DNA from: Candidatus Bathyarchaeota archaeon
Lineage (GTDB): Archaea > Thermoproteota > Bathyarchaeia > Bathyarchaeales > Bathycorpusculaceae
Direction: 5' to 3'
NCBI GenBank assembly: GCA_937873375.1
Contig: CALMWK010000164.1
Coordinates: 1 to 53,499 of the forward strand
Length of the DNA stretch: 53,499 nt
Below are positions 14,912-44,450 of the stretch, one piece after another. The position numbers were made by a program, and so were the translations under genes. How positions within the stretch are numbered: position 1 is the first letter of the stretch; each line of letters starts with the position of its first letter. The notes beneath the pieces are model-generated. The model was not told the origin of the DNA and made no database searches. It saw only the letters and a program-made list of their open reading frames with translations.

Positions 14912-16321
14912 GTGAAAGCCCGTGTAACCCTTGTGAACCCACCCTACCCAAGTGGGGCGCCACAGTCACTTTTCCTCCCGCTGGGTCTTGGCTACTTAGC
15001 CGCGGTCCTCGAAGAGAACCAGTACGAAGTCCAAGTTATCGACTGCCAAATCTTCAAACCCACACGCCAGCAGTTAGAAGCCGAACTTTCAAAAAGCGAC
15101 GCAGACATCGTGGGCGTAACCACCTCAACCCTCACATACTGGCCCGCAGTCGAAGTTGTAAAAGCAGCCAAAAAAGTCCTCCCCCACGCCCTAACAGTTC
15201 TGGGCGGACCACACGTCACAGCCCTACCTGAGCAGACCCTCACCGAAGCCCCCGAAGTAGACATAGTGGTTCGCGGCGAAGGCGAAAGAACCCTGCTTGA
15301 AATTGCCAAGTTGGCATCCAGAGACGAACTGAAAAACCTCGACAAAGTCGACGGCATAACCTTCCGCAAAAACGGAAAAATCCACCACACCAAAGACCGC
15401 GCCTTCATCGAAAACCTCGACGAACTCCCCCACCCAGCATACAAACATTTTCCACTGGAAAAGTACAGCATGGGCGGAACAAAATATCTCCCAATCATCA
15501 CCAGCCGAGGCTGCCCCTTCCAATGCACGTTTTGCCTTGCATCAAAAATGTGCGGCACCCGCTTCAGAACACGCAGCCCAAAGAAAGTTCTGGACGAACT
15601 AGAATGGCTAAGAGACGAACATGGCGCAGACGTTTTCTCGTTTTACGACGACACCTTCACCATAGACAAAAAACGCGCCAACGCCATATGCGACGAAATG
15701 AAAACCCGCAAATTCGACCTACCATGGGACTGCCGAACCCGCGTCGACCAAGTCAACAAAGAAATCCTAACCAAGCTAAAAAACGCCAACTGCAAACTTA
15801 TCCACTTCGGCGTAGAGTCAGGCAGCCAAAAAATGCTCGACGCCGTGAAAAAACGCACCACGGTGGAGCAGAACGCATGGGCAATTCAGCTGACAAAACA
15901 AGTAGGCATATCCGTCGCCATCTCGATGGTTGTTGGTTACCCAGGCGAAACCCCCGAACTGCTTGATGAAACCTTCAAATTCATCCGCCGCACAAAACCC
16001 GACTTCGTTTACGTGTGCCAAGCTATACCTTACCCAGGCACTGAACTTTTGGATTTGCTGCATAGTTTGGGCTGGGAAGTCTCCACTGACTGGAACCGCT
16101 TTGATGAGCAGTCGCCAGTTTTCAAGAACCCACTCCTTTCACCTGAAAAGATTGACGAGGTTCGGGGAGCGTTCTATGATGAATTCCTCTCACCCACATA
16201 TTTCGTACGCAAAGCAGTCAAACGCGACTTCTACAGCAAAATCATGGCAAAAACCGCCCTAAACCATCTGCTGTGGCGCATGAAAGTGCCCAAACTAATC
16301 AGCGCAGTCAGAAGACTCTAA
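14912..16321 (+). CDS. B12-binding domain radical SAM protein
   Basis: 469 residues from GTG 14912 with GGGGA 7-11 bases upstream. Residues 1-150 form a cobalamin-binding Rossmann domain (VNPPYPSG, LGLGYLAAVLE, GGPHVTALPE, VVRGEGE) without the DxHxxG motif, as in BchE, HpnJ-like and GDGT-ring-synthase-like enzymes. The radical SAM CxxxCxxC is C201, C205, C208, followed by FYDDTFT and a TIM-barrel pattern to about 420. These enzymes carry out C-methylations or ring closures on tetrapyrroles, lipids or natural products; the substrate cannot be read here. It is about 70 percent similar in layout to the paralogue at 23829-25238. Confidence 0.9.
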   Translation: MKARVTLVNPPYPSGAPQSLFLPLGLGYLAAVLEENQYEVQVIDCQIFKPTRQQLEAELSKSDADIVGVTTSTLTYWPAVEVVKAAKKVLPHALTVLGGPHVTALPEQTLTEAPEVDIVVRGEGERTLLEIAKLASRDELKNLDKVDGITFRKNGKIHHTKDRAFIENLDELPHPAYKHFPLEKYSMGGTKYLPIITSRGCPFQCTFCLASKMCGTRFRTRSPKKVLDELEWLRDEHGADVFSFYDDTFTIDKKRANAICDEMKTRKFDLPWDCRTRVDQVNKEILTKLKNANCKLIHFGVESGSQKMLDAVKKRTTVEQNAWAIQLTKQVGISVAISMVVGYPGETPELLDETFKFIRRTKPDFVYVCQAIPYPGTELLDLLHSLGWEVSTDWNRFDEQSPVFKNPLLSPEKIDEVRGAFYDEFLSPTYFVRKAVKRDFYSKIMAKTALNHLLWRMKVPKLISAVRRL

Positions 16322-16327
16322 CAAAAC

Positions 16328-17518
16328 TTAAACGGTTTCTTTGGCTTCGCGGTAAACCTTAAGCATCTTCTGAGCACAAACATCCCAAGAAAGCTCTCGG
16401 CTGACAAATTCGCGTCCCTTAGCACCCATTTTAAGCCTCAAACGCTCGTCAGACAAAAGCTTCAAAACCGCTTCAGCCAACTCCCCGCTGCTGCCAGGCT
16501 TCACCAGCAAACCCGTCTCGCCATCGCGCACGGCTTCAGCAACGCCGCTCACATCAAACGCCACCACAGGCACGCCAGACGACTGCGCCTCCAGCAACGC
16601 TATGCCCTGCCCTTCTTGGATAGAAGGAAACGCGAACACGCCAACGCAGCTGTAAAGTTCGGTGAGGTCGTTTTCGCTCACGTCTCCTATGAAGACAAAG
16701 TTATCTGCGAGCCCAAACGCTTCCACATCAGCAACAAGACGGTTTTTAAGAGGACCATTTCCAACGATTACAAACAGAGTTTCTTTGCGCTCTTTGACTA
16801 TTTGTTTTGCGGCTTCGATTAGGTAGCTTAAGCCTTTTCGGGGGATTAGCCTGCCCACGAAGAGAACCACTTGCCTGTCGCCTGCGCGGATGCGCTGCCT
16901 GATGCGTGTGCAGTCGCCGTTTGGCTTGAACCGCTCCGTGTCCACCCCGTTGGGCACCAGCCGTATCTTCGCTGAATCCACGTTGTAGTGCTCAAGGATT
17001 TTGCGCTTCGAATACTCACTTATCGTCACAATTAAAGTGGCTTTCTTTGCGGATTCCTCTTCGTGTTTAGCAAGCTGCCACATGAAAAGATTAGCCACTT
17101 TCGCCCTGAGAGATAAACCACCGCGTAAATTTGCCTGTGCATACTCATCCGCAAGAACCCCGTGGATGGTTTGCACCGAAGCCGCCGTTACGCCTTTTTT
17201 CTTGAAAGCGCTTAAGAGTCCGTAGCCGCTTGCAGTGTGCACCTCGTAGACGTCTGCTTTTATGGTGTTTGCTTTTCTTTTCAGTGTCTGGTTAAAAGTC
17301 CAGTTGTCCAGCGGAAAAACCCTGTCGGTGCTAAAACAGGGCACTACTGTTACGCCGTCAAGTTTTGTAATCTTGCGCAAGCCTGCTTTGGTTCCGCTGT
17401 AAACCGTCGTGTCCACTTCGCTCTGTAGCCGTTTGGCGGTTTCCAGAATTCTGCGTTCAACACCTCCGAGAAACAGTGGGGGTTGAGTGTTAAAGACGGC
17501 TAATTGTAGCTTGCTCAT
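16328..17518 (-). CDS. glycosyltransferase family 4
   Basis: 396 residues from ATG 17518. GT-B fold: the N-terminal half has GGVERRILETAKRL and the acceptor-binding region. The C-terminal half has LVPNGVDTERFKP, LFVGRLIPRKGLSYLIEA and the donor-site E-x7-E motif (PSIQEGQGIALLEAQSSG). It transfers an activated sugar, probably onto a lipid or protein glycan at the cytoplasmic membrane face. Convergent with the B12 radical SAM gene, 6 bases between stops, so read-through antisense is likely. It may take part in N-glycan synthesis for the sequon-rich surface proteins in this window; that is inference. Confidence 0.92.
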   Translation of the reverse strand: MSKLQLAVFNTQPPLFLGGVERRILETAKRLQSEVDTTVYSGTKAGLRKITKLDGVTVVPCFSTDRVFPLDNWTFNQTLKRKANTIKADVYEVHTASGYGLLSAFKKKGVTAASVQTIHGVLADEYAQANLRGGLSLRAKVANLFMWQLAKHEEESAKKATLIVTISEYSKRKILEHYNVDSAKIRLVPNGVDTERFKPNGDCTRIRQRIRAGDRQVVLFVGRLIPRKGLSYLIEAAKQIVKERKETLFVIVGNGPLKNRLVADVEAFGLADNFVFIGDVSENDLTELYSCVGVFAFPSIQEGQGIALLEAQSSGVPVVAFDVSGVAEAVRDGETGLLVKPGSSGELAEAVLKLLSDERLRLKMGAKGREFVSRELSWDVCAQKMLKVYREAKETV

Positions 17519-17550
17519 GGAGTTTGCCCTGTGAAGTGTCTTTGAACTTT

Positions 17551-17566
17551 CTATAACGCATTATAG
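17551..17566. promoter_or_regulatory. inverted repeat in divergent promoter region
   Basis: CTATAA-cgca-TTATAG, two perfect 6-base arms, lies midway between the glycosyltransferase and the gene at 17656. It overlaps candidate TATA elements in both directions, so it may be a shared operator or simply paired TATA boxes. Confidence 0.4.
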
Positions 17567-17655
17567 GTATAAGTATAATGTTGCTGATTTTCGCGAACCA
17601 TCCAGCGGATAAGGAATAAATTTAGATGCAATGACACACAATATGTCTACAAGGT

Positions 17656-18336
17656 GTGATTGCAATAGACGATTTTCCGCCTGTGGCTTTCAAGATTGGG
17701 AACGGCGAAACAAAAAATGACCGCGTTTGGCTAAAAAAGAAAAAAGAGTATTTCGAAGAGGTATGGAGTAAAAACGGTCCAAAGCTACTGCGGAAAATTG
17801 AAGACGCCTGCGGTGACACATTTACAAACACTTCCAAGCAAAACGGCATCGTTATTTTTCTACACACGAAAACGCCTAAGAGCCGCAGCGGTGTTCTCAA
17901 AGAAGACAAACCGCTTGAAATTAGCCTGTTTCTATCAAAAAATGACACCGCCAATGCTATGAAGGAACTTTTAGTCCGCATGCTTGTTCACTCGTTTATT
18001 TATCAGCAGTACGAGTTTCACTTTAGGATGAGAGAGCAAACCCTGTTTGAAGATATTCTTGCAGACGAATTTGTGACTTCCATGATTAGTTTTAGGGTAC
18101 TGGGAAGAAAGGTTGGGCGGGCAAACTGCGCCAAAGCACTAGACGAAGCCATAGACGAGACAGTTTACAGGTTATCGCAGAAGGCACCACGAAGTAAACT
18201 GGTGGATTTGATGTACAATTTTTCCCAAGAACACATAGGCAAAACCAAAAACCAGAAAAGTGACGTTTTGGCAAAACGAGAGGAACTCATATCAAAGCTG
18301 CTGAAGTTCTTGCCCAAAACCGTTAACACCGACTAA
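17656..18336 (+). CDS. hypothetical protein, possibly degenerate zincin-like
   Basis: 226 residues from GTG 17656. Charged, soluble, no TM or signal. The middle reads ELLVRMLVHSFIYQQYEFHF followed 20 residues later by LFEDILADEFVTS. The spacing of H, H and E/D recalls metallopeptidase helix arrangements, but a true HExxH is missing, so I do not call it a peptidase. The C-terminus is a basic helix. It is transcribed divergently from the glycosyltransferase and followed by a T-rich terminator. Confidence 0.6.
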   Translation: MIAIDDFPPVAFKIGNGETKNDRVWLKKKKEYFEEVWSKNGPKLLRKIEDACGDTFTNTSKQNGIVIFLHTKTPKSRSGVLKEDKPLEISLFLSKNDTANAMKELLVRMLVHSFIYQQYEFHFRMREQTLFEDILADEFVTSMISFRVLGRKVGRANCAKALDEAIDETVYRLSQKAPRSKLVDLMYNFSQEHIGKTKNQKSDVLAKREELISKLLKFLPKTVNTD

Positions 18337-18350
18337 AATACTGCACACGT

Positions 18351-18377
18351 TCTCTTTTGCTTTTTTGAATTTTTTTA
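18351..18377 (+). terminator. T-rich terminator
   Basis: Runs of 4, 6 and 7 T follow the 17656-18336 gene by 14 bases. Confidence 0.45.
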
Positions 18378-18427
18378 AGTTTCAAACTTTAAACATTTAT
18401 CCAAACAGCAGCTCTCAAAGGGAGGTT

Positions 18428-19324
18428 TTAGGTTTTTGTTTTGGCTCTTCGGGTGGCGACCACAATCACCACGATAATAACTATGATCATTAGGGCTATC
18501 TGGTACTCGGGAACAGTGCCTGTTGAGGTTGCGTTTGTTGGAGTTACGCAAGGCGTGGAGGTTAGGGTAGAAGTAGGCGATTCAGTTTGGGTAGGCTCTG
18601 GAGTTTGCGTCGTGTCATTTGTCGGGGTTGAGGTAATTGAGGGCGAAGGCGTCGGGGTCGGGGTTAGGTTTATGGTTGGAGCAGGGGTTGAGGTTGCGAC
18701 TGGAGTTGAGGTTACAACAGGAGATGGTGTGGTAACAGGAGTTGCTGTTGGGGTAGTGGTTACAATTGGAGTGGACGTTTCTATCACCACACGCACCATA
18801 AAGGCGCCATAAGTGTTGGGTTTAGTCACCCCACTCATCGATGTTCCCCAAAACGAGCGGTTAGTATTAGTTGAGTTATCGAACAGAAGGGTATTTCTCA
18901 GTTCACCTGTTGTCTCTATCACTACACAGAAGTTACCCGAAACCGTCAAGTTTTTGCTGGAAACATCCAAGCTGTTCCAGCCACCAGCGCCCACTGTTGA
19001 AGTTGTAGACATTGGCGGCACTATCTCTCCTGAAAAGTTAGACCCCGTTATGTGTATAGTTAAACTGTCATTTGCTGCATACCACGCATAACGAACAGCC
19101 AACAGTTTCGCCGAAGAAATTCCAGCGGGCAAAGAGAAGTTAACACCGTAAAAACCGATACCTCCCGCCCCAATAGCCACTCCGTTGTCATAGTACAACT
19201 CTGTTTGAGAAGTTTGAGCATTTAAAGGAGACATAAGAGAAAATGCCGTGGCTAAAACCGACATCAACAGTAAGAATAATGCAAAACGAGGTACACACTT
19301 TTTGAAGATACCGTTTAGCCGCAT
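18428..19324 (-). CDS. surface protein with Thr/Pro-rich stalk and C-terminal TM
   Basis: 298 residues from ATG 19324. N-terminal signal peptide (about 10-36, ending LNAQ), a beta-sandwich domain (about 40-180) with Asn-x-Thr/Ser sequons, a roughly 85-residue Thr/Ser/Pro linker, and a C-terminal TM helix (about 272-293) ending in RRAKTKT. This is a common archaeal cell-surface architecture: an exposed domain held above the S-layer on a glycosylated stalk. Same strand and same style of C-terminus as the neighbour at 19410-22250, with 85 bases between them. Confidence 0.75.
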   Translation of the reverse strand: MRLNGIFKKCVPRFALFLLLMSVLATAFSLMSPLNAQTSQTELYYDNGVAIGAGGIGFYGVNFSLPAGISSAKLLAVRYAWYAANDSLTIHITGSNFSGEIVPPMSTTSTVGAGGWNSLDVSSKNLTVSGNFCVVIETTGELRNTLLFDNSTNTNRSFWGTSMSGVTKPNTYGAFMVRVVIETSTPIVTTTPTATPVTTPSPVVTSTPVATSTPAPTINLTPTPTPSPSITSTPTNDTTQTPEPTQTESPTSTLTSTPCVTPTNATSTGTVPEYQIALMIIVIIVVIVVATRRAKTKT

Positions 19325-19409
19325 CTTTCAACTATCCAATAATAACCGTGCATGCAGTGTGTCTAATTTAACTTTTTCACAAATAAGAAGAAAAGGACAG
19401 AGAAACGAT

Positions 19410-22250
19410 TCAGTGGCGGATTCTTTTCCGGTACTCATATGCAGCCACAGTAATCACCGCGACCAAAAACAAAATGAACAGTATGTAAACGTACTCCATG
19501 GGTACGCCTGCAACTTGTTGCTCCTCAAACGGCGTAGGCGTTGGAAGCGTAACAGACGGCGAAGGCGACTCTGTTGGAGATGGTGAAGGCGTTTGCGGGC
19601 TGTTCACCGTCAAAACCACAGCGGAGCTCGTTGCGGAAGCGTAGTAGCTTTTGTCTGCCCGCCACTGTGCAGTCACTGCCCAAGTTCCCGTCTCGCTGGG
19701 CGTGAAAGTAAAAGTGAACGCACCCTTCGCGGAAGTGACCACTTGGATGCTGTTTGCGTTGCCGTCAGGCTTAACAAAAGTCAAAGTCACCGTTGCATTA
19801 GATTTTCCGGGTACAAGTTGACCAAAACCAGTCACCAGTTCACTTGAAACAACGGCTGTATTGGCTAACCCAAGGGTTAAGCTACTGGTTAAGGCGGGGT
19901 AGTCGGCTAGGCAGTAAACGTTCCAGTCGTTGTTGCCAACGTACACTCTTCCCTCGTAAATGGTTGCAGCAGACCAACTGTTGGAGCCTGTGGTGAAGAA
20001 ACTGAGTTTTTCGCCGCTGGTGGCGTTGAGAACAAAGATGTGGCGTTGGTCAGTTACAACGTACAATTTTTCGTCGGCGTAAGAAGGCGAAACGTACAGT
20101 TCATCGCCCAAGTAAGCCTTCCAGATGCTACTGCCGTTTTTTGCGTCAACGCAAACTATGGAGAATTTGTCAACCAAAAAGAGCCTGCCGCTGTTGTAGA
20201 CGGTGGAGCAGAGTATGAACTCTTCTGAAGCATTGTTGCTATACGTCCATGCGGTGCTGCCAGTGACGGCGTTAATCCCGTAGTATGTTCCTGCGTTTGA
20301 GGAAACAAAGACCATGCCGTCGGCTACTGTGGGAGAGGCATGCATGTCAGTGCCGCCCATGAAACCTATATTGTAAGGAATCGTTTTTTCCCAGACGCGA
20401 GCGCCATCGTTGGCATCTAACTTGTAGAGAACCCCTGAAGATGGCTCCTGCGAAATAACGTAAACTGCGCCGTCAGCAACTGCCGCAGAGGATGTGATGT
20501 ATCCGCGGGTCTGGTACTTCCAGTTGACATCACCGTTGTTGGCGTTTAAGCAGTACAGGTTAGTGTCCAGCGACCCCACGTAAACCTTGTTCCCGACTAC
20601 TATGGGCGAGGAACGCAACATCACTGAAGCCGCAAAGTTGGCTGGGATGACGCCTCCCGCGTAGGTTTTCCATATGAGGCTGCCGTTGTAAGCGTTAAGA
20701 CAGTAAACGTAGCCGTCGTCGGTGCCCGTGTAAACTTTACCGTTCACCACGGCAGGTGAAGATAAGATGCGTTCTTGAGTTTGGAATTTCCAGATGAAAC
20801 TGCCATCTTGCGCGTTAACGGCGTAGATGTTTTTGTCAAAAGAACCAAAATAGGCAACACCATTTGCGATGCTGGGCGAAGAAACCACGGACCCCTCAGT
20901 GGCGAATTTCCAGCGCAAAACCAAGTTTGTGGGGCCAGATTGACCAGTCGCGGAGTGCGCGGGGTCGTGTCGCCACATGGACCATGCTGTGGTGCCTATA
21001 GCCCAAATTTGGTTAGCTGTGGAGTATTCTGACCCTGAGATTGTGTCAACCGCCGCGGTCACGTTGGCGGGAATCAAGTACAAGTTACCATATGCAATGG
21101 CAACGGATTCTCTGGGAGCAAACGCTTCGATGGGCAACTTCCACAAAACTTGTCCCGTGTAAGCGTCAAGGCAGGCAAACTCAGATGCACCATACTCTTC
21201 ACCATACGATACATCTTGACCAGTTGTGGCGTAAATCTTGCCATCAGCAACTGCGGCGTTCCCAGGGAACATTAAGGTGCCTGGACCTTTGTATTTCCAA
21301 ACTAAAGCGCCAGTGTCAGCGTCAATGGCATACAGGTTCCCGTCTTTGTTGGGTTCGTAAACCATGCCGTAAGCGGCTGCGGTTCCAGTGCAGAAGTAGC
21401 CGCCCTCGGTGCCAGGGTTATAAGTCCACAAGATTTCGCCATTGTCTGCGTTAAACGCGTAAAGCGTGTTGTCGTGGGTGCCGCCTCTGAAGAATTTGCC
21501 GTCGTAGTAGGTTCCTGAGAAAAGCATCGCGCCCATAGTGTTTGTGTCCCACAAAACCGCGCCTGTCTTCGCGTCCAATGCTACTTGGTGAGACTCAAAG
21601 GACCCTGGAAAAACTTTGCCGTCGCCGTACTGTATTCCTGAACCAACCAAACCGCTGCCCGAAACGTAGGTTTCCCAAACTAAGGTTGGCTGCTGCTGGG
21701 GGTTAGAGAAGTTCCACGCCTGAATGTACGAATCGGCTTTGATGTAGAACATTTTTTCTTCGGGGCTGTAAACGTTGTTGGTGAAAAGCGGTGAGGAAGA
21801 AGCCGAAAATTCAGCGCTAGTCCAGATAATGTCCCCCGTTTCAGGATTAAGGCAGCTGCTTCCAGCAACCATGTGCGTGTTGTCGATTTTGTAAACGGCT
21901 GGCCACGGTCCAATCGCGGGAAGAGTGGTGCTCCAGACGACGCCGCCTGTTTTTTCGTTTAGGGCGAAAACCGCGGTTTTTGTTGTCACATAAATTTTGC
22001 CGTTGAACGCGGAGACGTAGCTTTGTATGCCTGTTATGTTGGTTTTCCACATGATGTCGGGGGCTTCAGGGGCGGGTCCAGCTGAAAAGCGGCTGAAAGA
22101 TGAGTCGCCTTGCAGTTGGGGCCATTCGTACTGAAGCAGGTTGCTGTTGGTGGTTGGCGTTTCAGTCTGTCCGAAGCTTTGGAACAAGGTTATGCTTGAA
22201 GACATCAATAAAAGAGCTATCACGAACGTAGAAAGAAGTTTAGTTTTCAT
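19410..22250 (-). CDS. large PQQ-like beta-propeller surface protein
   Basis: 946 residues from ATG 22250. Signal peptide at 1-30. Two propellers are built of repeats of about 40 residues with the consensus GxVYhxxxDxxhYAhNAxxGxhhWKh. The first covers about 50-400, the second about 425-780 after a linker (SMWRHDPAHSATGQSG). An Ig-like domain (about 785-895), a Pro/Ser-rich stalk, and a C-terminal TM helix followed by YRKRIRH complete it. PQQ-like here names the fold; nothing suggests quinoprotein catalysis. Probably a surface scaffold or binding protein. A TATA box at 22332-22341 lies about 90 bases upstream. Confidence 0.85.
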   Translation of the reverse strand: MKTKLLSTFVIALLLMSSSITLFQSFGQTETPTTNSNLLQYEWPQLQGDSSFSRFSAGPAPEAPDIMWKTNITGIQSYVSAFNGKIYVTTKTAVFALNEKTGGVVWSTTLPAIGPWPAVYKIDNTHMVAGSSCLNPETGDIIWTSAEFSASSSPLFTNNVYSPEEKMFYIKADSYIQAWNFSNPQQQPTLVWETYVSGSGLVGSGIQYGDGKVFPGSFESHQVALDAKTGAVLWDTNTMGAMLFSGTYYDGKFFRGGTHDNTLYAFNADNGEILWTYNPGTEGGYFCTGTAAAYGMVYEPNKDGNLYAIDADTGALVWKYKGPGTLMFPGNAAVADGKIYATTGQDVSYGEEYGASEFACLDAYTGQVLWKLPIEAFAPRESVAIAYGNLYLIPANVTAAVDTISGSEYSTANQIWAIGTTAWSMWRHDPAHSATGQSGPTNLVLRWKFATEGSVVSSPSIANGVAYFGSFDKNIYAVNAQDGSFIWKFQTQERILSSPAVVNGKVYTGTDDGYVYCLNAYNGSLIWKTYAGGVIPANFAASVMLRSSPIVVGNKVYVGSLDTNLYCLNANNGDVNWKYQTRGYITSSAAVADGAVYVISQEPSSGVLYKLDANDGARVWEKTIPYNIGFMGGTDMHASPTVADGMVFVSSNAGTYYGINAVTGSTAWTYSNNASEEFILCSTVYNSGRLFLVDKFSIVCVDAKNGSSIWKAYLGDELYVSPSYADEKLYVVTDQRHIFVLNATSGEKLSFFTTGSNSWSAATIYEGRVYVGNNDWNVYCLADYPALTSSLTLGLANTAVVSSELVTGFGQLVPGKSNATVTLTFVKPDGNANSIQVVTSAKGAFTFTFTPSETGTWAVTAQWRADKSYYASATSSAVVLTVNSPQTPSPSPTESPSPSVTLPTPTPFEEQQVAGVPMEYVYILFILFLVAVITVAAYEYRKRIRH

Positions 22251-22331
22251 TTCTTAACCTCAAAGAATCTGTTGTGGCAGGTCATACGTCGGTTCCCCTG
22301 TCCCTCAGTATAGGTTGATAACATTGGATTT

Positions 22332-22341
22332 CACTATAAAC
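22332..22341 (-). promoter_or_regulatory. TATA box for the beta-propeller gene
   Basis: GTTTATAGTG on the minus strand, giving a leader of roughly 60 bases before ATG 22250. The remaining 22251-22559 intergenic region has no gene. Confidence 0.4.
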
Positions 22342-22559
22342 CTTTCCCAAAAACAAAAAGTAAGGCGTGTTGGGTTGTTGGGCGGCATTCTGGCGGCTCC
22401 ATCGATTGGGCGAAAAATCTGACTTTACCATAGTAAAAAGGGTTATTCTGCAAGTTTAGCTAAAAGAAGAGACTGTATGGGTGACCGCAAAATCTTTTTT
22501 AGGCTGACTCTCATTGGTAAACGATGTAAAATTCAGGACACTAAAAGGGGAATTCTTGT

Positions 22560-23633: not shown

Positions 23634-23720
23634 GCACCCAACACCATTTTTTCTTTGGGCACCACACGCTAAACAGCAGGGCAACTCCAAAGTCTAGGTT
23701 GCAGCATCGTTCGCTCAAAA

Positions 23721-23729
23721 CTTATAAAC
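23721..23729 (+). promoter_or_regulatory. TATA box for the second B12 radical SAM gene
   Basis: CTTATAAAC about 100 bases before ATG 23829. A GAGAGG stretch precedes the ATG. Confidence 0.4.
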
Positions 23730-23828
23730 GAGTTTAACGTCAAATCAGTCAACCATTCCCAAGCCAAGCAAGACGCTTAAGGAAATGGCGAACGTCACAA
23801 TTCACTTGTCAAGTGGGAAGAGAGGAAA

Positions 23829-25238
23829 ATGAACCAAACCAAAAAAGCAAAAGTTGCGTTAGTAACTGCTCCACATCTTGAAAGAGAATATCATCATCCA
23901 CTTTTCCCACCCATCGGCTTAAGCTATCTAGCCGCGGTTCTGGACCAAAACGGTTACGAAGTAAAAGTGATAGACTGCCCTGCATGTGGCTTCACCCAAG
24001 AAAACCTAAAAGCCGAACTTTCCTCTTTCGCGCCCGACATCATCGGCATAGCCTCCATGACAGCCACCATACCTTCAGCGTTGGAGTCTGCACGGACAGC
24101 AAAAGAAGCCTGCCCCAACAGCAAAGTCATCATGGGCGGTCCACACGCCACCTTCGCCGACAGCCAAATCCTCACCGAAGAAAACGCTGTTGACATTGTT
24201 GTGCGCGGTGAAGGCGAACTCACGCTTCTGGAACTTGCAGAGAACAATGCTGACCCCAAAAGTTTGCCGAAAACTCAGGGTATAACGTTTAGGAACAAGG
24301 GTCAAATTGTCAAAACAGGCAACAGACCCTTTATTGAGGACTTGGATGCGCTTCCGAGACCAGCCTACAAGTTTTTGCCCATGGACAAGTACAAGATTAC
24401 AGGCAAAAATTTCCTGCCGATAATGAGCAGTAGAGGATGCCCCTTCCAATGCAGCTTCTGCGTCGCCAGCCAAATGTTTGGCGCGAAATTTCGTGCAAGA
24501 AGCCCAAAGAACGTTGTAGACGAGTTGGAGTGGCTTAAAAGTGAGTACGGCGCTGAAGGCATAAGCTTCCACGATGACACCTTAACACTGGACAAGAAAC
24601 GCATACTCGACATATGCGACGAACTCATCACGCGAAAAATAGGTCTGCCATGGGGCTGCCAAACCCGCGTGGACACAGTCTCAGAAGAAATTCTAGCTAA
24701 AATGCACAAAGCAGGCTGCAACGAAGTTTCCTTCGGTGTGGAATCGGGCTGCCAAAGAATCCTGGATGCAGTGCACAAGAAATTTGAGCTTTCACAGGCT
24801 GAAAAAGCCATTAAATGGGCAAAAAAAGAAGGCTTGTTTGTCGCGGTTTCCACAATTATCGGTTATCCAGGTGAAACCAAAGAGACCATGCAGCAAACCA
24901 TGGATTTGATGCGTAGAATTGAACCTGATGATGCTTGGCTGTGCATAGCTACGCCATATCCAGGCACAGAACTTCGCGCGTTGGTGGAGAAAAATGGGTG
25001 GAAGATGACGAACGACTGGACCAAGTATAACACGATGAACCCCATTTTTGAAAACCCTAATTTGGCTTCGGATGAGTACAGCAAAATGCGGACAAAGTTC
25101 TACAATAGCTTCTACACGCCAAAGTACGTGTTTCGACAGATTTCGAAGGGTTACTTGAAGGGGAACTTTTACAGCAAGATAATGGCGCGGACTGCCGTGA
25201 ACTATATGCTGTGGCGAATCATGGCAAAGTTCCATTAA
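23829..25238 (+). CDS. B12-binding domain radical SAM protein (paralogue)
   Basis: 469 residues from ATG 23829, the same length as the protein at 14912-16321. Cobalamin-binding domain at about 8-150 (APHLERE, IGLSYLAAVLDQ, GGPHATFADS, VVRGEGE), again without DxHxxG. Radical SAM cysteines C204, C208, C211. Conserved HDDTLT and EVSFGVESGCQRILDAV follow, and both paralogues end in a similar FYSKIMAxTAxNxxLWR tail, which may be a membrane- or partner-contact element. Likely substrates are tetrapyrroles, isoprenoid lipids or peptides. Being kept as a pair suggests two sequential or related reactions. Confidence 0.9.
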   Translation: MNQTKKAKVALVTAPHLEREYHHPLFPPIGLSYLAAVLDQNGYEVKVIDCPACGFTQENLKAELSSFAPDIIGIASMTATIPSALESARTAKEACPNSKVIMGGPHATFADSQILTEENAVDIVVRGEGELTLLELAENNADPKSLPKTQGITFRNKGQIVKTGNRPFIEDLDALPRPAYKFLPMDKYKITGKNFLPIMSSRGCPFQCSFCVASQMFGAKFRARSPKNVVDELEWLKSEYGAEGISFHDDTLTLDKKRILDICDELITRKIGLPWGCQTRVDTVSEEILAKMHKAGCNEVSFGVESGCQRILDAVHKKFELSQAEKAIKWAKKEGLFVAVSTIIGYPGETKETMQQTMDLMRRIEPDDAWLCIATPYPGTELRALVEKNGWKMTNDWTKYNTMNPIFENPNLASDEYSKMRTKFYNSFYTPKYVFRQISKGYLKGNFYSKIMARTAVNYMLWRIMAKFH

Positions 25239-25269
25239 AATTTTTACTCAAAATTTCTTTTCTTTTTTA
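25239..25269. terminator. bidirectional terminator between convergent genes
   Basis: AT-rich stretch with T runs downstream of the plus-strand gene; it overlaps the 3' end of the minus-strand gene that ends at 25244. Confidence 0.35.
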
Positions 25270-26167
25270 TGCTGTCAGCTTGGGCACTAAGTTTTTTGGA
25301 GAAAAGCAAAGGCATCCCAACCAGAGGCAGAGTCGCCATCCACAAATCAACGTTATGAAGCACCGCGAACGTTGGCCACACAGTCAACCCGCCCATATCT
25401 CCGAACAATAACCACAGAAGCAATAGGACATCAAAGTACAACCCCAACCCAGTCACGATTAAGCCTGCTTTTCTCAGGTTAAGTTCACCTAACGTTTTTG
25501 CTTTTGAGGAGTTCTTTGCGTAAACGGCAGCATACACTGTAATTAAGAGCAGCCCCACAACGGTTAGTGCAAATTCGACAGTGTACACATGTGAATTAGT
25601 GATTAGGGCTGTGCCTTGCAGGAAAATTTCGCTCCACCACTGCGAAGTATAGTTGAACCAGAACACGAACAAGTGCGCAACAGCCGCAATCAAGCCCCAC
25701 TTTATGGCGCCTTGGGCAGGCTTGTTTGGGCTTATTTTGAAAAACAACACAACCAACACGGTCGGCATGACGAGGGCTTCTACTAGACAGGGCAATCCCG
25801 CTTCGATTATGAAGAAATCGCGTGAGTACAGAACACTTTGAAAGTTGAAGCCCCAGATGCCAGCGGGAAAGAAAAGCGCCCAGTACGCGGCTTCAAGCAG
25901 AACAATCCATCTAAAAGAAGTAACGACTTCACAAGTGGATAATCCTCTTTTAACCAGATAGAGTATGGTGACAATTAAGGCCATGAAACTTGCGGCTGCT
26001 CTGAAGCCGAAACCAACTGACCCGGGCATGTCTGTGAAGGGTACGTCGGTCAGGTTGAGCACGGTTGCGCCGAACTTGTACATTGTATAGGAGAACCAAG
26101 TTAGCGCGACTATGAACAAGCCTATTTTGAATGCCCACTTGGCCTTGTTCTCCACTGTTTTCTTCAC
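25244..26167 (-). CDS. polytopic membrane protein of unknown function
   Basis: 307 residues from GTG/ATG at 26167. About eight hydrophobic helices spread over the chain, with short loops and a basic C-terminal tail (KKLSAQADSIKKKRNFE). No transporter signature or known enzyme motif is seen. Scattered Trp and Tyr in the helices (WFSYTMYKFG, WFNYTSQWW) suggest a binding cavity at the membrane surface. It lies between two radical SAM genes, convergent with one and divergent from the other. A partnership with those enzymes, for example lipid substrate handling, is only contextual. Confidence 0.65.
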   Translation of the reverse strand: MKKTVENKAKWAFKIGLFIVALTWFSYTMYKFGATVLNLTDVPFTDMPGSVGFGFRAAASFMALIVTILYLVKRGLSTCEVVTSFRWIVLLEAAYWALFFPAGIWGFNFQSVLYSRDFFIIEAGLPCLVEALVMPTVLVVLFFKISPNKPAQGAIKWGLIAAVAHLFVFWFNYTSQWWSEIFLQGTALITNSHVYTVEFALTVVGLLLITVYAAVYAKNSSKAKTLGELNLRKAGLIVTGLGLYFDVLLLLWLLFGDMGGLTVWPTFAVLHNVDLWMATLPLVGMPLLFSKKLSAQADSIKKKRNFE

Positions 26168-26374
26168 CTTGATTTGGATGAATTGGTTTCAGGATAAGTG
26201 ATACTTAAACTTATGCAGCAAACCCTAAAAATAAACTGGGAACAAACACTTGCAGAAACCCATTACGCCACAGTTTCACGTCTCCAAAGAAAGTTTAGGA
26301 AGCTGGACTGTTTAACAGAAACTTTATTACACATTCAAACCTCTTTTCAAGGCTGAACGTTTGAGGCTTCAAGA

Positions 26375-27667
26375 ATGACAAAAGCACCCCAATCAGAAGC
26401 TTATGAACAAAGAACAAACTGGCCACCCTACACCTACAGGGATTATCCAGACATAAAACCTGAAACTTACAAAGCATTTATGGAATTCCTAGAAACCGAA
26501 AACACAACAGGCAGGCTTATGGAGCTGCAACCGTGGATATCCGTTTGTGACTCTAGATGTGCTTTTTGCTACTTCCCCACCACAGCCTCCAGCAAAGTTC
26601 AACTAGGCGACTATTTGGAACTGCTCAAGAAAGAGCTGGAAATGTACGCCAAAACCAAATATGTGCAAACCAGCGTATTCGACGAGATAGTTTTGGGCGG
26701 CGGAACCCCCAGCGTTCTCTCAGCTGAGCAGATGATTGACCTCATAGACTTCTGCAAAGAACGCTTCACCACAAGCAAAGAGTACTTCATCAAAGTCACA
26801 GGCTCCTCAAAGACGCTGGCGCTCAACAAAATCGACAAACTTGCCGCTTACGGCGTGTACCAGATGGACATGGGCGCGCAGACCTTCGACGATAAACTCA
26901 GGAAGATGCTGTGTTTGCCTGATAGCGCGGCGGATGTGGAGAAAGCCATACGTCACGCGCGGAATTTGGATTTGTGCGTTTGTGTGGACCTTATGTACAA
27001 CCTTCCAGGCCAAACCATGGAAAGCTGGATAAACACACTAAAGAAAACCATAGAGCTAGATGTGGAAGTTGACGCTTACTCACTGCACGTTGATCCAGGT
27101 ACGCCACTTGAAACCATGATTAAGAGAGGAATATCTCCGCCTCAGGGCGATGCAGAATACGAGAAAGAAATGTACCTTGCAGCTTACAAAATGCTAACCG
27201 AAGCAGGCTACAAAGCAGTGGGACACGACCGCTACTCACGCGTTGAGTGGCACATGCGCGAAAACTGCCTCAACGGCTGGCCATGGGGCGGAATTTTAAC
27301 CACAGGCGCAGGCTGCTTCATGGGCTATATGCAACGGTTTAGCTACAGCAACCTTGAAGACGTAAACGATTACATGTCCACAGTCAAAGCGGGCAAACTG
27401 CCCATACACAGGCTTTCCGAGTCCACTGACGAGGACATGATGAGCCGCGAAATGAGCAGACTTTACTTGCGGTTGCCTGTAAGCAAGCAGGAGTTCATGG
27501 AGAAGTTCGGGAAACTGCCCGAAGACGTTTTTCCCCAGCAGCTGAAAAATCTGAAGGAAAAAGGCTTGATTGAGATTGACGACAAAGAAGTCCGCATAAC
27601 CAAGCAGGGCGAAGTTTGGAAGGGCAACATAGCCTGGGAATTCGCCCAAAAACCCGCCAGCAACTAA
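26375..27667 (+). CDS. HemN/HemW-like radical SAM protein
   Basis: 430 residues from ATG 26375. CxxxCxxC at C58, C62, C65 (CDSRCAFCYF), GGGTPS at about 109-114, the family-like MGAQTFDDKLRKML, MYNLPGQTMESW and HVDPGTPL, and a C-terminal HemN_C-like winged helix (about 345-430). This is the family of oxygen-independent coproporphyrinogen dehydrogenase HemN, heme chaperone HemW, and the heme-opening ChuW/HutW enzymes. Archaea do not use the HemN step in their siroheme-dependent heme route, so a HemW-like or new tetrapyrrole role is likelier. Flanked by two membrane proteins and near two AhbD-like genes. Confidence 0.85.
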   Translation: MTKAPQSEAYEQRTNWPPYTYRDYPDIKPETYKAFMEFLETENTTGRLMELQPWISVCDSRCAFCYFPTTASSKVQLGDYLELLKKELEMYAKTKYVQTSVFDEIVLGGGTPSVLSAEQMIDLIDFCKERFTTSKEYFIKVTGSSKTLALNKIDKLAAYGVYQMDMGAQTFDDKLRKMLCLPDSAADVEKAIRHARNLDLCVCVDLMYNLPGQTMESWINTLKKTIELDVEVDAYSLHVDPGTPLETMIKRGISPPQGDAEYEKEMYLAAYKMLTEAGYKAVGHDRYSRVEWHMRENCLNGWPWGGILTTGAGCFMGYMQRFSYSNLEDVNDYMSTVKAGKLPIHRLSESTDEDMMSREMSRLYLRLPVSKQEFMEKFGKLPEDVFPQQLKNLKEKGLIEIDDKEVRITKQGEVWKGNIAWEFAQKPASN

Positions 27668-27692
27668 ACAATTTTTTCTTTTCACTTTTTAG
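27668..27692 (+). terminator. T-rich terminator after HemN-like gene
   Basis: Runs of six, four and five T begin 6 bases after the stop codon. The rest of the 27668-27823 gap holds no gene. Confidence 0.4.
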
Positions 27693-27823
27693 TTTATTGC
27701 ATGAAAACAGGTGAGCGTAGCTTATCAGGCAACCTGAGAAACGGCAGTTAAGAATTTTGGATAAACACGTTACAGAGAAAACTTTGAACTAAAAAAGGAA
27801 AAAAGAAAAGGAAGACTTGTTGG

Positions 27824-28549
27824 CTAAACTTTCCTTGGGGATAGCCCGTACCACGTCATTACTTTAGCAATGACTGGTGCGATTACACCAAGGAGTATCA
27901 TGGGCAGCATTATTTTGAAGAGTGCATCGCCAGGGTTGCCTTGTGTCATCCATGCGCCGTATGAGATTGTGTAGTTGAAGACGAATTGCAGTATACCGCA
28001 TATTATTGAAATGGTTAAACCTGCGCCTAACATGCGTTTGAAGTTGTATGAGCCATTGTTTAGTGCGCCTGCTACGTAGCCAATTAGTATTCCGACTACG
28101 ATGTAGTTTCCGATGAAGCTTGGGTCTGCATAGAGATTGGGTAGCAAGTCATTAGCGGACATACCCATACTAGTAACATAGTCAGGACCGAGCATTTGGT
28201 AGCCTTGTATGCTGATTTGTGCACTGAAGATTGTGTTGTAGCCAGCCATTCCTAGATAGTATAGTGTGCCCATTATGAAGCCTGCAGCGCCTCCAGCCCA
28301 TTTGTTCCAGAGTAAACCTAAGAGTAGCGGGATGCTGAACATGACCATTTGAGCAAAGCCGTGTGTGAATATGACTGTGAGGAAGGCCCAGTCTGAGCCT
28401 GCGGCGCCAGTCCACATGTCTGCGACTGGGAACCAGCTGTCTAATGCGGGGCGAAGAATAGCGGGGAAAGCAACGATAAGTAAGCCGACGAGCACTGGTA
28501 CTACTAAGCCATACGCGATGTCTTTTAGCTTGAATTTTTCTGTTTCCAT
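27824..28549 (-). CDS. six-TM membrane protein next to RnfD-ferredoxin fusion
   Basis: 241 residues from ATG 28549; GTG 28558 is in frame but is better read as part of the GAGTGAG ribosome site. About six TM helices, Gly-rich (GAAGFIMGTLYYLGMAGYN, IVVGILIGYVAGALNNG), no charged catalytic cluster. Size and topology recall small solute-binding membrane components, but no ECF signature is visible, so I leave it unassigned. It has its own TATA box and is downstream of the rnfD-like gene on the same strand, so a shared role in redox or quinone/flavin handling is possible. Confidence 0.65.
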   Translation of the reverse strand: METEKFKLKDIAYGLVVPVLVGLLIVAFPAILRPALDSWFPVADMWTGAAGSDWAFLTVIFTHGFAQMVMFSIPLLLGLLWNKWAGGAAGFIMGTLYYLGMAGYNTIFSAQISIQGYQMLGPDYVTSMGMSANDLLPNLYADPSFIGNYIVVGILIGYVAGALNNGSYNFKRMLGAGLTISIICGILQFVFNYTISYGAWMTQGNPGDALFKIMLPMILLGVIAPVIAKVMTWYGLSPRKV

Positions 28550-28584
28550 GTTTCTCACTCGTTAATGTCTATACGTTTAGGCGC

Positions 28585-28593
28585 GTTTATAAA
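28585..28593 (-). promoter_or_regulatory. TATA box for the six-TM gene
   Basis: TTTATAAAC on the minus strand. Start of transcription would fall near 28562, leaving a leader of about 12 bases that holds the GTGAG ribosome site. Confidence 0.45.
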
Positions 28594-28697
28594 TTTAATG
28601 CCTTAAATCAACATACACGGTTCTGCTGAGAGGGTAGAAGCGGCAGGTTTTGGGGTGTTTTATGAATTCAGGTTGGAAAACAGGTCAAGCTTAGTTG

Positions 28698-28726
28698 ATA
28701 AAAAGGAAAAGAAAAGTTAGGAAGTG
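28698..28726 (-). terminator. T-rich terminator after rnfD-like gene
   Basis: On the minus strand, C/T-rich runs (CTTTTCTTTTCCTTTTT) follow the stop codon at 28738. Together with the separate TATA box, this suggests the six-TM gene is not simply co-transcribed. Confidence 0.4.
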
Positions 28727-28737
28727 AGTTGCGCAGT

Positions 28738-30111
28738 TTACTCCTGACGCAACATTCCTTTTGCTGTGAGGACGCTTTTTCGCAGGTCTAGTCTTGCTGG
28801 GCAAATGAATGTGCAGTGACCGCAGCCTGTGCAGTAGTCGGCGTGTAGTTTTGCTAGGGTGTCGAAGTCTTGTTTGTCAAGTGCTTGCTTGATGAGGATT
28901 GGGCTGAGGTTGTGGCAGCAAACGCGCATGCAGGCGCCGCATCTCATGCATTGGTATTCTTTGACTTTTTCAGCTGGGAATTGTTTGGCTTTGGGTAGTT
29001 TGGGTTCTTTCTTTTCGGTGCGGGGTTTGAGTTTGCCGATTTGGTCTAGCTTTGAAACGGTTAGGTTCATGATGATGAGTGCTAGTATGGAGCCGCCGAA
29101 GAAGTTCATGCCTGTTTGAATTAGTACGGTGAGTACGCCTAAGCCGACACCGAATATCAGTTGACCAGTGTAGGTGATTGGGGTGGTTGCGGGGTCAGTT
29201 GCCATGAAGAAGCCTAGGAAGATGGAGCTGCCGATGAAGACTTCGAAGAGGAGTCTGGTGGTCATGTCTGTGTCTGCGAATGCTACGGACATGAGTACGG
29301 ACATTATTGCTATGGAGGCGAAGTATGCGAGGGTGATTCTCCATTTTATGAATCTGCGTGCGACGATGAATAGTGCTATACCTGCGACTATGACAGCGAT
29401 GCTTGATGCTCCGCCTACCCAGCCGTGGAACTTTTCCACTATCATCAGGTAGGTTACGTCTGGGGGACTTGACATTAAAGCTGGGTTGGCATAGCAGCCT
29501 TGTAGGTAGCTGGAGAAGGAAGCCAGACCGTTACCGCCTACTGGTAGTATGCCTGCACCTATTGGGCCTGCCAATGCAGGTACGCCGAGCATACCTGTTT
29601 TGAGGTGGTCTACAGCGATGAACACTGCGTTAAAGAGCGGAAGCAAGACGAGCATTTTTGCTGCTGCGGCTGGGTTTACGAGTTTTCGTCCCATGAGTTT
29701 TTTGAACAGCACCATGCCGACTAGGGATATCAAAGCTACGTAGATGAAGGCTCCTGGGGCGACGACGGGTAGGCCGATTTCGGTATTCATTGAGGGCAGG
29801 CCGAGGCTGTATGAGAGGGTGACAATTAGACCGAAGACTGCTGCGGACATGAGGTTTAGTGGGCTGTCTGAGACGAGTTTGTAGAAGAGAGCGTCGATTC
29901 CTACTGCAACACCCACGGATATGAGGGCGCATAGGATTACGGTGAGGCCTAGGTTTAGGCTTGTTTCCCCTGTCATGAGGTTTGTGGGGGTGACTGGGTA
30001 CCACAAAATGGCGGATACGACGGTGATGGCGATAAGTGCGATGAGTGTGTAGAGCATTAGTTTGTCTTTTGTCATTGCCGAGTATTCTTTTGGTTTTGAC
30101 ATCTTTAACAT
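28738..30111 (-). CDS. RnfD/NqrB-like membrane protein fused to RnfC-like ferredoxin
   Basis: 457 residues; AAGGAG lies just before ATG 30111 (ATG 30102 is possible). Residues 1-365 carry about nine to ten TM helices with RnfD/NqrB marks: FHGWVGGASSIAVIVAGIALF, RRFIKWRITLAYF and the ATDPATTPITYTG motif. I do not find the usual SGATPL-type motif whose Thr binds FMN covalently; the aligned region reads NGLASFSS. Residues 386-440 are a two-cluster ferredoxin with C388, C391, C394, C398 and C427, C430, C433, C437, in the RnfC-type pattern ending CPARLDL. No rnfA, B, C, E or G is in the window. Probably membrane electron transfer between ferredoxin and an unknown partner. Confidence 0.88.
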   Translation of the reverse strand: MLKMSKPKEYSAMTKDKLMLYTLIALIAITVVSAILWYPVTPTNLMTGETSLNLGLTVILCALISVGVAVGIDALFYKLVSDSPLNLMSAAVFGLIVTLSYSLGLPSMNTEIGLPVVAPGAFIYVALISLVGMVLFKKLMGRKLVNPAAAAKMLVLLPLFNAVFIAVDHLKTGMLGVPALAGPIGAGILPVGGNGLASFSSYLQGCYANPALMSSPPDVTYLMIVEKFHGWVGGASSIAVIVAGIALFIVARRFIKWRITLAYFASIAIMSVLMSVAFADTDMTTRLLFEVFIGSSIFLGFFMATDPATTPITYTGQLIFGVGLGVLTVLIQTGMNFFGGSILALIIMNLTVSKLDQIGKLKPRTEKKEPKLPKAKQFPAEKVKEYQCMRCGACMRVCCHNLSPILIKQALDKQDFDTLAKLHADYCTGCGHCTFICPARLDLRKSVLTAKGMLRQE

Positions 30112-30261
30112 AATCTCCTTTTTGGTTGGAATCTGTCAAAACGTTAGGGCGTTTGGTTTATAAGATTTTCTAATTTGGCAGTGGAAAACGTCAATGTTGG
30201 CGCAATTGTGGTGTTTTTTATGGTTTGGATTAAGCAGGAATGTGTGTACAGTTTTTCTGTG

Positions 30262-30329
30262 TGGGGAAGGTTGGGTGGTGGGGTTTTTTGTTGTGGGGTG
30301 TTGGTTGGGGGTTGGGTGTTCTTGTGGGA
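30262..30329 (+). other. G-run cluster, predicted G-quadruplex
   Basis: At least eight runs of three to five G within about 68 bases on the plus strand, separated by short T-rich loops. This would satisfy a four-tetrad quadruplex rule several times over. It lies 40-107 bases before the GTG start of the second SPASM gene and 150 bases before the divergent rnfD-like gene. Confidence 0.5.
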
Positions 30330-30368
30330 GAACAGAAACTGGTCTTTGGGTGTACGGGAGGAACAGTC

Positions 30369-31529
30369 GTGGACAATAGGAAATTTTATATCGCAAAGAT
30401 TCGTCTAAGTGTTGCTGTGAGTTTGATGGCAAACGCAATGCCTAGTACAAAAGCACCTCTATACATGGTAACTTGGCGGTGTACCCGAAGATGTGTTGGT
30501 AGCTGTCTTTATTGCAGTTACACGCCTGAGTACGCCAAAGATACCGAGTTAGACACTAACGCAGCCAAGAAGATGGTTGATGAAATTCATGAGTTTGGTT
30601 CTCCATGGTTTGGAATAAGCGGTGGGGAGCCGTTGGTGAGGCAGGACATTTTTGATGTCATAAAGTATGCTAAAGAAGAGTATGGCATGGAAGTTAGCCT
30701 CATCACTAGTGGATTTGCTTTTGACCAAGAGAGGCTGGATAAGCTTGCGAAGTATGAGGTGCACACTGCGGTCAGCGTTGACGGCAACAGAGAATCCAAC
30801 GACATTATTCGGCGCAAAGGTAGCTATGATAAAGCTTTGTTTGCTATGAAGAAGTTGTCTGAGAACGGGATTTTGGACTGCATCGTTACAACCATGACCA
30901 AGTATAACATTAAGGACATGGCGCACCCCGCGATGTTGGCAGAGGAATACAAAGCGCGGATGATGGTTTATCATAACTTGGTGCCTGTGGGTAGAGCTGG
31001 CAGTAACATGCCTGATTTGGCTCCGACAGCCGACCAGTACGAAGAGGCGTTCAACGAAATCTATGACTTGCAGACCAAGTTGATGGGGCGAGTTAAAATT
31101 AATGTTTATGCGCCTTTCTACGCGAGAATTGTGCGTCAGCGGAACCCTGTTGATTTCTGGGACTGGTTTGAAAATGGCTTCCTTGGCAAGTGCACTATAG
31201 GCGGCAACTATGTCAGTGTTACTGAGAACGGTGATTATCGCTCCTGTGGTTTCCATGAGGACTACCGTTTGGGCAACGTTATGGACAAGAAGCTTACCGC
31301 TGTTTGGAATGACCTGCAGAAAAGTGAGTTGCACCTGAAGCTGCGTGACAAGAGCAACATCAAGGGCAGATGCGGAATTTGTGAGTACCGCGAAATTTGC
31401 GGTGGCTGCCGAACACGCGCTGAGTACTACACTGGTGACTTGTTTGAGTCTGACCCAGCATGCAACTACATACCTAAAGTTCTGCGGGAAGACCCAGAGT
31501 TAGCCAAAAAATACGGCGTAAAAGTTTAG
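30369..31529 (+). CDS. radical SAM/SPASM protein, AhbC/AhbD/NirJ-like (paralogue)
   Basis: 386 residues from GTG 30369, chosen because GGGAGG (30356-30361) gives a 7-base spacing; the frame is open back to 30240 but that part is low-complexity G/T-rich sequence. ATG 30426 is a second possibility. Radical SAM cysteines C42, C46, C49 preceded by an extra Cys 38; GGEPLVRQD follows. SPASM tail with KGRCGICEYREICGGCRTR and FESDPACNYIP, almost the same as in the protein at 22560. The N-terminal 25 residues form a possible amphipathic helix that its paralogue lacks. Divergent from the RnfD-ferredoxin gene, a possible electron source. Confidence 0.87.
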   Translation: MDNRKFYIAKIRLSVAVSLMANAMPSTKAPLYMVTWRCTRRCVGSCLYCSYTPEYAKDTELDTNAAKKMVDEIHEFGSPWFGISGGEPLVRQDIFDVIKYAKEEYGMEVSLITSGFAFDQERLDKLAKYEVHTAVSVDGNRESNDIIRRKGSYDKALFAMKKLSENGILDCIVTTMTKYNIKDMAHPAMLAEEYKARMMVYHNLVPVGRAGSNMPDLAPTADQYEEAFNEIYDLQTKLMGRVKINVYAPFYARIVRQRNPVDFWDWFENGFLGKCTIGGNYVSVTENGDYRSCGFHEDYRLGNVMDKKLTAVWNDLQKSELHLKLRDKSNIKGRCGICEYREICGGCRTRAEYYTGDLFESDPACNYIPKVLREDPELAKKYGVKV

Positions 31530-39086: not shown

Positions 39087-39093
39087 CCAAACA

Positions 39094-40194: not shown

Positions 40195-40196
40195 AG

Positions 40197-40877: not shown

Positions 40878-40920
40878 GTTCACAGTTTCCTTTGTCGTCA
40901 TGTTTTTTCACTTTTGTTTT

Positions 40921-42255: not shown

Positions 42256-42258
42256 GCC

Positions 42259-43347: not shown

Positions 43348-43390
43348 GCAATTTTCCCCAAGTTTGATTAATAAAAAAGGAAGGGGATAT

Positions 43391-44428: not shown

Positions 44429-44450
44429 TTTTTTCACTCTTTTTTAGTTA

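Follow-up and report, generated by a model that had tools for sequence, protein, structure and literature searches.

In bacterial NQR/RNF-like flavinylated systems, an NqrB/RnfD membrane protein is joined to a cytosolic donor domain, and electrons pass in one direction to flavoproteins outside the cytosol (PMC8238504). In Listeria, EetB, which resembles the substrate-binding (S) component of energy-coupling factor (ECF) transporters, exports flavin adenine dinucleotide for flavin-based extracellular electron transfer (EET) (PMC9973259). Here we describe a gene cluster with features of both at positions 14,912–31,529 of a 53,499-nucleotide stretch of Candidatus Bathyarchaeota DNA (the window), which is contig C164 of a 2.0-Mb archaeal genome bin. 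It comprises five radical S-adenosylmethionine (SAM) genes, namely two B12-binding enzymes (B12a and B12b), two SPASM enzymes (SPASM1 and SPASM2) and a HutW-like enzyme, together with two orphan membrane proteins (MP1 and MP2) and a fusion of RnfD to a 2[4Fe-4S] domain. The cluster is a real and strongly conserved neighborhood in Bathyarchaeia (relatives of Bathy-6 and Bathycorpusculum), and it probably builds and serves a redox or membrane molecule. It appears not to have been described before: a literature search, subscription papers aside, found no published account of the cluster or of an RnfD-FrhB fusion in Bathyarchaeia. A study of Bathy-6 genomes reports many B12 radical SAM and SPASM enzymes, proteins with pyrroloquinoline quinone (PQQ) repeats and a possible PQQ synthase, and does not mention Rnf (PMC11697101).

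Like the NQR/RNF-like systems, the cluster combines an NqrB/RnfD domain with a cytosolic donor, other pump subunits are not recognized near its RnfD, and electrons would flow from the donor to the extracytosolic face. It differs in being archaeal, in its donors, which are 2[4Fe-4S], FrhB or RnfC modules rather than NqrF (PF00175 in the published definition), and in having a radical SAM set instead of the flavin mononucleotide (FMN) motif and ApbE. With the Listeria EET locus (EetB/FmnA/FmnB) it shares a membrane protein of predicted ECF S-component fold beside redox genes, although ECF-T, ApbE and an FMN-binding protein are not recognized beside MP2.

A conserved and co-inherited neighborhood

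Of the first 60 relatives (window genome not counted), 18 carry the RnfD gene complete or nearly so, in surroundings that hold much of the same gene set, and further regions agree. Where relatives with these genes are named, they are Bathyarchaeota, Bathycorpusculum and Miscellaneous Crenarchaeota group 6 among them. Eighteen RnfD loci extend 5 kb or more to either side; within 5 kb of RnfD, the MP2 gene was present in 15 of these loci, SPASM2 and the HutW-like gene each in 13, a B12 radical SAM gene in 8, and SPASM1 and a PQQ-repeat propeller in 7 each. Conservation spans many genera and partly also a second family. Among species of the genus, SPASM1, SPASM2 and the HutW-like protein are about 80–92% identical, mostly above RnfD or MP2, and this level of identity points to strong constraint. 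Because gene strands alternate across the cluster, and order and strands also vary among relatives, we regard it as a conserved neighborhood and not as a single operon. The propeller, the GT4 glycosyltransferase and an amidohydrolase are counted as part of the finding since each recurs in relatives (loci designated by L numbers): the propeller often adjoins SPASM1 (L036, L038, L039, L067, L073, and L089) and the amidohydrolase adjoins SPASM1/B12 genes (L046–L048, L072–L076, L089, and L092).

The distribution of the genes tells the same story at larger scale. Sampling of 250 genomes across the phylum showed the HutW-like gene to be confined to the window's family and one other family in its order; the sole other match of comparable strength was a second type of HutW-like paralog (type 2; 44%) in a third family. 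Among 70 genomes of the window's family, each at least 85% complete, the HutW-like gene occurred in 49, RnfD in 48, and SPASM2-type and SPASM1-type genes in 50 and 51, respectively (both counts include paralogs), and 18 genomes lacked all four. At the level of genera, two polymorphic ones (g9 and g27) being split, 12 units had both the HutW-like gene and RnfD, 13 had neither and 0 were discordant; as the units share tree ancestry and the statistic is not corrected for it, the resulting p value (2e-7, kinship ignored) is an indication only. Presence and absence varying inside g9 and g27 helps against the objection of kinship. These data indicate that the parts of the cluster are gained and lost together. 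A previous interpretation made from the letters alone (the sequence-only reading) had listed these genes, with B12 paralogs of equal length, as one candidate system; every part was found where it had been placed (table 1), and the conservation and co-occurrence that such a system implies are both borne out by the counts above.

Table 1. Genes of the cluster and its surroundings, with window coordinates
Feature	Position	Strand	Remarks
Amidohydro_3 (YtcJ-like) amidohydrolase	12545..14041	-	PF07969, 332.8 bits
B12-binding radical SAM enzyme a (B12a), 469 aa	14912..16321	+	HpnJ 252 bits, BchE 248 bits
GT4 glycosyltransferase	16328..17518	-	present in some relatives' loci too
PQQ/BamB-type beta-propeller, 946 aa	19410..22250	-	signal-like N-terminal segment, hydrophobic C-terminal segment
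Radical SAM/SPASM enzyme SPASM1, 357 aa	22560..23633	+	PF04055, PF13186; AhbD 219 bits
B12-binding radical SAM enzyme b (B12b), 469 aa	23829..25238	+	BchE 266 bits, HpnJ 253 bits
Polytopic membrane protein MP1	25244..26167	-	helical bundle
HemN_C-type radical SAM enzyme, HutW-like	26375..27667	+	HutW 190 bits, HemW 150 bits
Membrane protein MP2, six helices, probable ECF-transporter S-component fold	27824..28558	-	AlphaFold model
RnfD-like membrane protein, C-terminal 2[4Fe-4S]	28738..30111	-	PF03116 and dicluster matches
Radical SAM/SPASM enzyme SPASM2, 366 aa	30429..31529	+	start (~30429) favored by homologs over a 429-aa open reading frame from 30240
Cobamide operon, CobY-CobS-CobT-(diphthamide-synthase-like)-BtuD/C/F type genes	37708..44437	-	similar set adjoins the cluster in L031

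Two proteins of unknown function are also encoded at 16,328–22,250, with the glycosyltransferase and the propeller. Outside the cluster, 33,580–35,022 holds an ApeA-type gene (ApeA_NTD1 and HEPN_Apea domains), a candidate anti-phage defense protein.

RnfD architectures and the replaced flavin site

The cluster RnfD contains the NQR2_RnfD membrane domain (PF03116, 112.4 bits against a gathering threshold of 27.7), and this one locus shows three architectures among relatives: the RnfD-2[4Fe-4S] form of the window; an RnfD-2[4Fe-4S]-FrhB fusion (L043, L066, and L073; L091 was assigned from its length and homology); and RnfD with a distinct RnfC-like protein after it that contains RnfC_N, Complex1_51K and 2[4Fe-4S] domains (L044 and L070 by Pfam; L069, L090, and L095 by homology). 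FrhB is the F420-binding subunit of F420 hydrogenase/dehydrogenase. The three architectures form the pattern expected if a single conduit takes electrons from ferredoxin, F420H2 or NAD(P)H, and as judged from these domain arrangements RnfD is a donor-swappable transmembrane conduit. The sequence-only reading had cast the RnfD-ferredoxin as an electron feed for the radical SAM enzymes; it would be more than that, the ferredoxin form being one of several that the conduit takes.

RnfD (PF03116) and an RnfC-type dicluster, with RnfC_N/51K domains in some lineages, are shared with the RNF complex. RnfA, B, E, and G were not recognized beside the cluster RnfD in Pfam searches of window proteins and selected neighbors, the rest of the genomes not being searched. 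An RNF pump driving the radical SAM enzymes is unlikely without these subunits, their absence being judged from the stretches read only.

A further difference from the RNF complex lies in the flavin site. The threonine of the xxATPL motif of canonical RnfD carries a covalent FMN, which is attached by ApbE. This FMN is located near the outer membrane face (PMC12174285). In an alignment of the cluster RnfD orthologs with five bacterial RnfD/RsxD proteins, the motif was replaced in all orthologs aligned. The replacing segment has invariant Phe199 and Cys206, near the canonical FMN site, and the next segment, K-x-H-x-W-x-GG, has invariant Lys227, His229 and Trp231. ApbE was absent from the window genome, and the 70 family genomes gave one weak partial match, in a search that was positive in 7 of 14 control genomes. 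Nor did an FMN-binding domain match any of the proteins scanned (those of the window and selected neighbors). RnfD with its exchangeable donors, MP2 with its predicted S-component fold and the extracytosolic propeller together match the layout of the bacterial systems. Where those have the flavin motif, ApbE and an FMN-binding domain, the motif here is replaced, ApbE is essentially absent, the domain was not recognized in the proteins scanned, and a fixed set of radical SAM enzymes is present; we infer that these enzymes make the molecule that would work at the outer side of the conduit or receive its electrons. We tentatively favor, at somewhat short of an even chance, a redox system, extracytosolic or in the membrane, that parallels the bacterial flavin-based NQR/RNF-like systems and in which a cofactor made by radical SAM enzymes would replace the flavin.

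In some relatives RnfD has other neighbors (L040 6,558–13,649, L093, and L148), where it is flanked by a conserved anchored protein, X449, which is beta-helix-like and lies 16–60 bases off, by a conserved secreted protein with a YDEPGG motif (X386), and by a Fer4_5 (NapH-type) membrane protein.

Radical SAM enzymes and their candidate products

The CxxxCxxC motif is intact in all five radical SAM enzymes (CPFQCTFC at 201 in B12a, CPFQCSFC at 204 in B12b and CDSRCAFC in the HutW-like enzyme); B12a and B12b are 50% identical, and SPASM1 and SPASM2 48%. All five score below the cut-offs of the named NCBIfam families. The SPASM pair has the radical SAM plus SPASM layout of AhbC, AhbD, NirJ, and TIGR04053, with a conserved CGxC...CGGC tail, but its scores are less than half of the cut-offs for AhbD (219 and 195 bits for SPASM1 and SPASM2; cut-off 500), AhbC (149; 650) and NirJ (158 and 149; 515), and it also falls short of PqqE (110 and 124; 381) and MftC (141 and 135; 265). 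In a tree with AhbC, AhbD, NirJ, TIGR04053, TIGR04347, PqqE, and MftC as references, SPASM1, SPASM2 and a third paralog of the window genome grouped into one well-supported clade (98/96) apart from all references; MftC and PqqE are long branches, and the clade lies outside both. The phylogeny thus places the pair in a new clade outside AhbC/NirJ, AhbD and PqqE. The HutW-like enzyme shares radical SAM and HemN_C domains with HutW/ChuW, the anaerobic heme-degrading enzyme and its best profile match, but does not reach the HutW cut-off of 400 bits and, in a tree with HutW, HemW, HemN, and STM4012, stands in a clade of its own that groups weakly with HutW, long branches limiting this tree. B12a and B12b have the B12-binding plus radical SAM layout of BchE and HpnJ, their best profile matches, at about half of the cut-offs (481 and 578 bits, respectively), and bacteriochlorophyll or hopanoid genes were not recognized beside them.

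Paralogs of these enzymes occur in other settings. The third SPASM paralog (L081 9,876–10,943, on contig C77) is near Mrp/NBP35-type-like ATPase genes in several genomes. A close SPASM2 paralog, 79% identical, is found at L082 9,416–17,912 and L085 9,329–15,624, upstream of genes that resemble those of NAD-linked NiFe-hydrogenases, as judged from sequence starts. Next to SPASM2 itself, at window positions 31,652–32,704, a small secreted Cys-containing protein and a gene for a DUF7343 winged-helix protein, hydrophobic in its N-terminal part, form a pair that recurs in this place within the genus.

Apart from B12a, which is closest to HpnJ, the three enzyme types have their best profile matches among tetrapyrrole enzymes, which suggests that the HutW-like, BchE-like and SPASM enzymes might alter a corrin- or sirohydrochlorin-derived ring, a corrinoid being likelier than a heme. 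Cobamide genes are in agreement with this: CobS, CobT, CobY, CobD/CbiB, CbiA, threonine-phosphate decarboxylase and a corrinoid ABC transporter adjoin the cluster or lie close to it in many genomes (several of these names rest on similarity or sequence starts only), CobS occurs in 53 of the 70 family genomes, and nearly all cluster carriers have two CobS-family genes, most non-carriers none. Type-2 HutW-like genes, 43–47% identical to the cluster gene (L061 704–2,732, L062 9,672–14,014, L135 801–2,872, and L063 8,667–11,075), adjoin a CN-hydrolase gene in L061, L062, and L135, and in L062 and L063 they have the corrinoid amidase CbiZ as an immediate or close neighbor; the type-2 enzyme may have a role in corrinoid salvage or breakdown, and its setting also counts for a corrinoid product. 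On the other hand, the B12 need of cobalamin-dependent radical SAM enzymes accounts for the cobamide genes at least equally well, all scores are well under the family cut-offs, and the heme branch is missing in most carriers. B12 supply is the simplest reading of the cobamide link, and a corrinoid substrate is possible. We consider a modified tetrapyrrole unlikely as the product of the cluster.

AhbA/B (siroheme decarboxylase) was found in 16 of the 70 family genomes as against 49 for the HutW-like gene, and is missing from most cluster carriers. The SPASM pair is not the heme pathway of the window genome either, because an AhbA/B-AhbC-AhbD-like operon, with another AhbC/AhbD pair, sits on contig C159, away from the cluster. 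With AhbA/B rare, heme genes elsewhere and the SPASM clade separate, a heme or heme d1 pathway was rejected as a general role. The sequence-only reading had proposed a pathway for a modified tetrapyrrole or lipid, fed with B12 by the corrinoid operon. Its heme-type version does not survive these counts and the unmet AhbC, AhbD, NirJ, HutW, and BchE cut-offs, and a corrinoid or lipid product is still possible; of the B12 feed, adjacency and co-occurrence of the cobamide genes hold, supply itself being the simplest reading of them.

The lipid version would have the B12 and SPASM enzymes modify tetraether tails or a head group, with RnfD giving reducing power; examples are extra methyl groups, or a carbocyclic sugar as head group, produced jointly by GT4, the HpnJ-like enzyme and the amidohydrolase. 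B12a is indeed closest to HpnJ, a hopanoid head-group enzyme, adjoins the GT4 gene and is near the amidohydrolase gene. Moreover, a second conserved module (L137 120–18,240, on contig C98; L139, L144, and L147) encodes Tes, a UbiA prenyltransferase, an NAD epimerase, CobS-like and CobY-like proteins, SPASM4, DUF362 and glycosyltransferases; its Tes-family tetraether synthase scores 454.8 bits against a cut-off of 450 (match in L139). The CobS-like gene of this module is the second CobS, which by count shares its set of genomes with the window cluster, and its place in a Tes/UbiA module keeps a lipid role in play, as do the BDGT (butanetriol dialkyl glycerol tetraether) lipids reported from Bathyarchaeia (PMC13003381). 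However, the Tes module sits elsewhere in the genome, B12a scores less than half of the HpnJ cut-off, the HutW-like enzyme and SPASM1–3 have no lipid-acting relatives among the models searched, and a donor-swappable RnfD with an ECF S component is not known in lipid synthesis. A membrane-lipid pathway is thus a somewhat unlikely alternative.

SPASM enzymes often act on peptides, and the pair might make a peptide-derived redox cofactor similar to PQQ or mycofactocin, or mature the propeller, whose gene often adjoins SPASM1. Among PDB sequences, SPASM2 is best matched by PqqE (6c8v), and a similar Bathy-6 gene was annotated as a PQQ synthase (PMC11697101). Yet the SPASM1–3 clade lies away from PqqE and MftC, as the sequence-only reading required of a pair distinct from peptide maturases; a PqqD/PqqC/PqqB-like gene or a conserved short precursor was not noticed in the neighborhood, where no systematic search was made; and u121, a small secreted protein beside SPASM2, is confined to the genus and was rejected as the peptide substrate. 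PQQ synthesis as such is not supported, given the position of the pair outside PqqE, and we hold a peptide-derived product to be highly doubtful.

Membrane proteins and the proposed redox system

Profile searches gave no family match for MP1 or MP2. An AlphaFold model of MP2, built from 30 sequences (mean pLDDT 83.5), best matches the S component ThiT (3rlb; Z 13.1, root mean square deviation 2.6 Å over 140 residues); the first 14 structural entries are all ECF S components, and unrelated proteins appear from Z 9. Helical bundles can reach such Z values, and the best Foldseek hit alone has an E-value of 0.09, so that the assignment of MP2 to the S-component fold is good but not final. The MP1 model (pLDDT 80.0) gave weak, generic helical matches (G protein-coupled receptors, rhodopsin; Z up to 10), from which no fold assignment can be interpreted.

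In the redox system that we favor, the RnfD-type protein would move electrons between the outer face of the membrane and a cytosolic donor that would differ among lineages (ferredoxin, F420H2 or NAD(P)H), working without recognized neighboring RNF subunits and without covalent FMN. The two SPASM enzymes, the HutW-like enzyme and one or two cobalamin-dependent BchE/HpnJ-like enzymes, their B12 cofactor supplied by neighboring cobamide synthesis, would produce or alter a small molecule, redox-active or bound to the membrane, which either replaces flavin at the conduit or accepts its electrons. MP2 may bind this molecule or a precursor, or move either across the membrane, and the extracytosolic propeller would be a likely client or docking protein. 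A more specific version, in which covalent flavin in archaeal transmembrane electron transfer has given way to a new redox cofactor made by at least five radical SAM enzymes, delivered by the ECF S component and perhaps attached to Cys206, seems to us quite unlikely.

Several observations weigh against this redox system. No extracytosolic protein with a recognizable redox cofactor was found; the propeller fits structural BamB/ACSF4 profiles better than those of quinoprotein dehydrogenases. EcfT/EcfA were not recognized beside MP2, the genome not being searched for EcfT, and RnfD could still hold a non-covalent flavin. Linkage is also not universal: one relative (L037) has RnfD without any other part within about 9 kb, and in family f6 SPASM2 and the HutW-like gene sit about 17–20 kb from RnfD, so that a single step shared by these enzymes and the conduit need not be assumed.

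In anoxic sediments Bathyarchaeia rank with the most abundant archaea, and the cluster provides a concrete, testable candidate for electron exchange between this group and its surroundings. Its RnfD-type conduit has kept the membrane part, lost the flavin site, joined three donor modules and become linked to a constant complement of radical SAM enzymes. Should the product of these enzymes prove to be a new cofactor or lipid, this would account in part for why Bathyarchaeia are so unusually rich in radical SAM genes.

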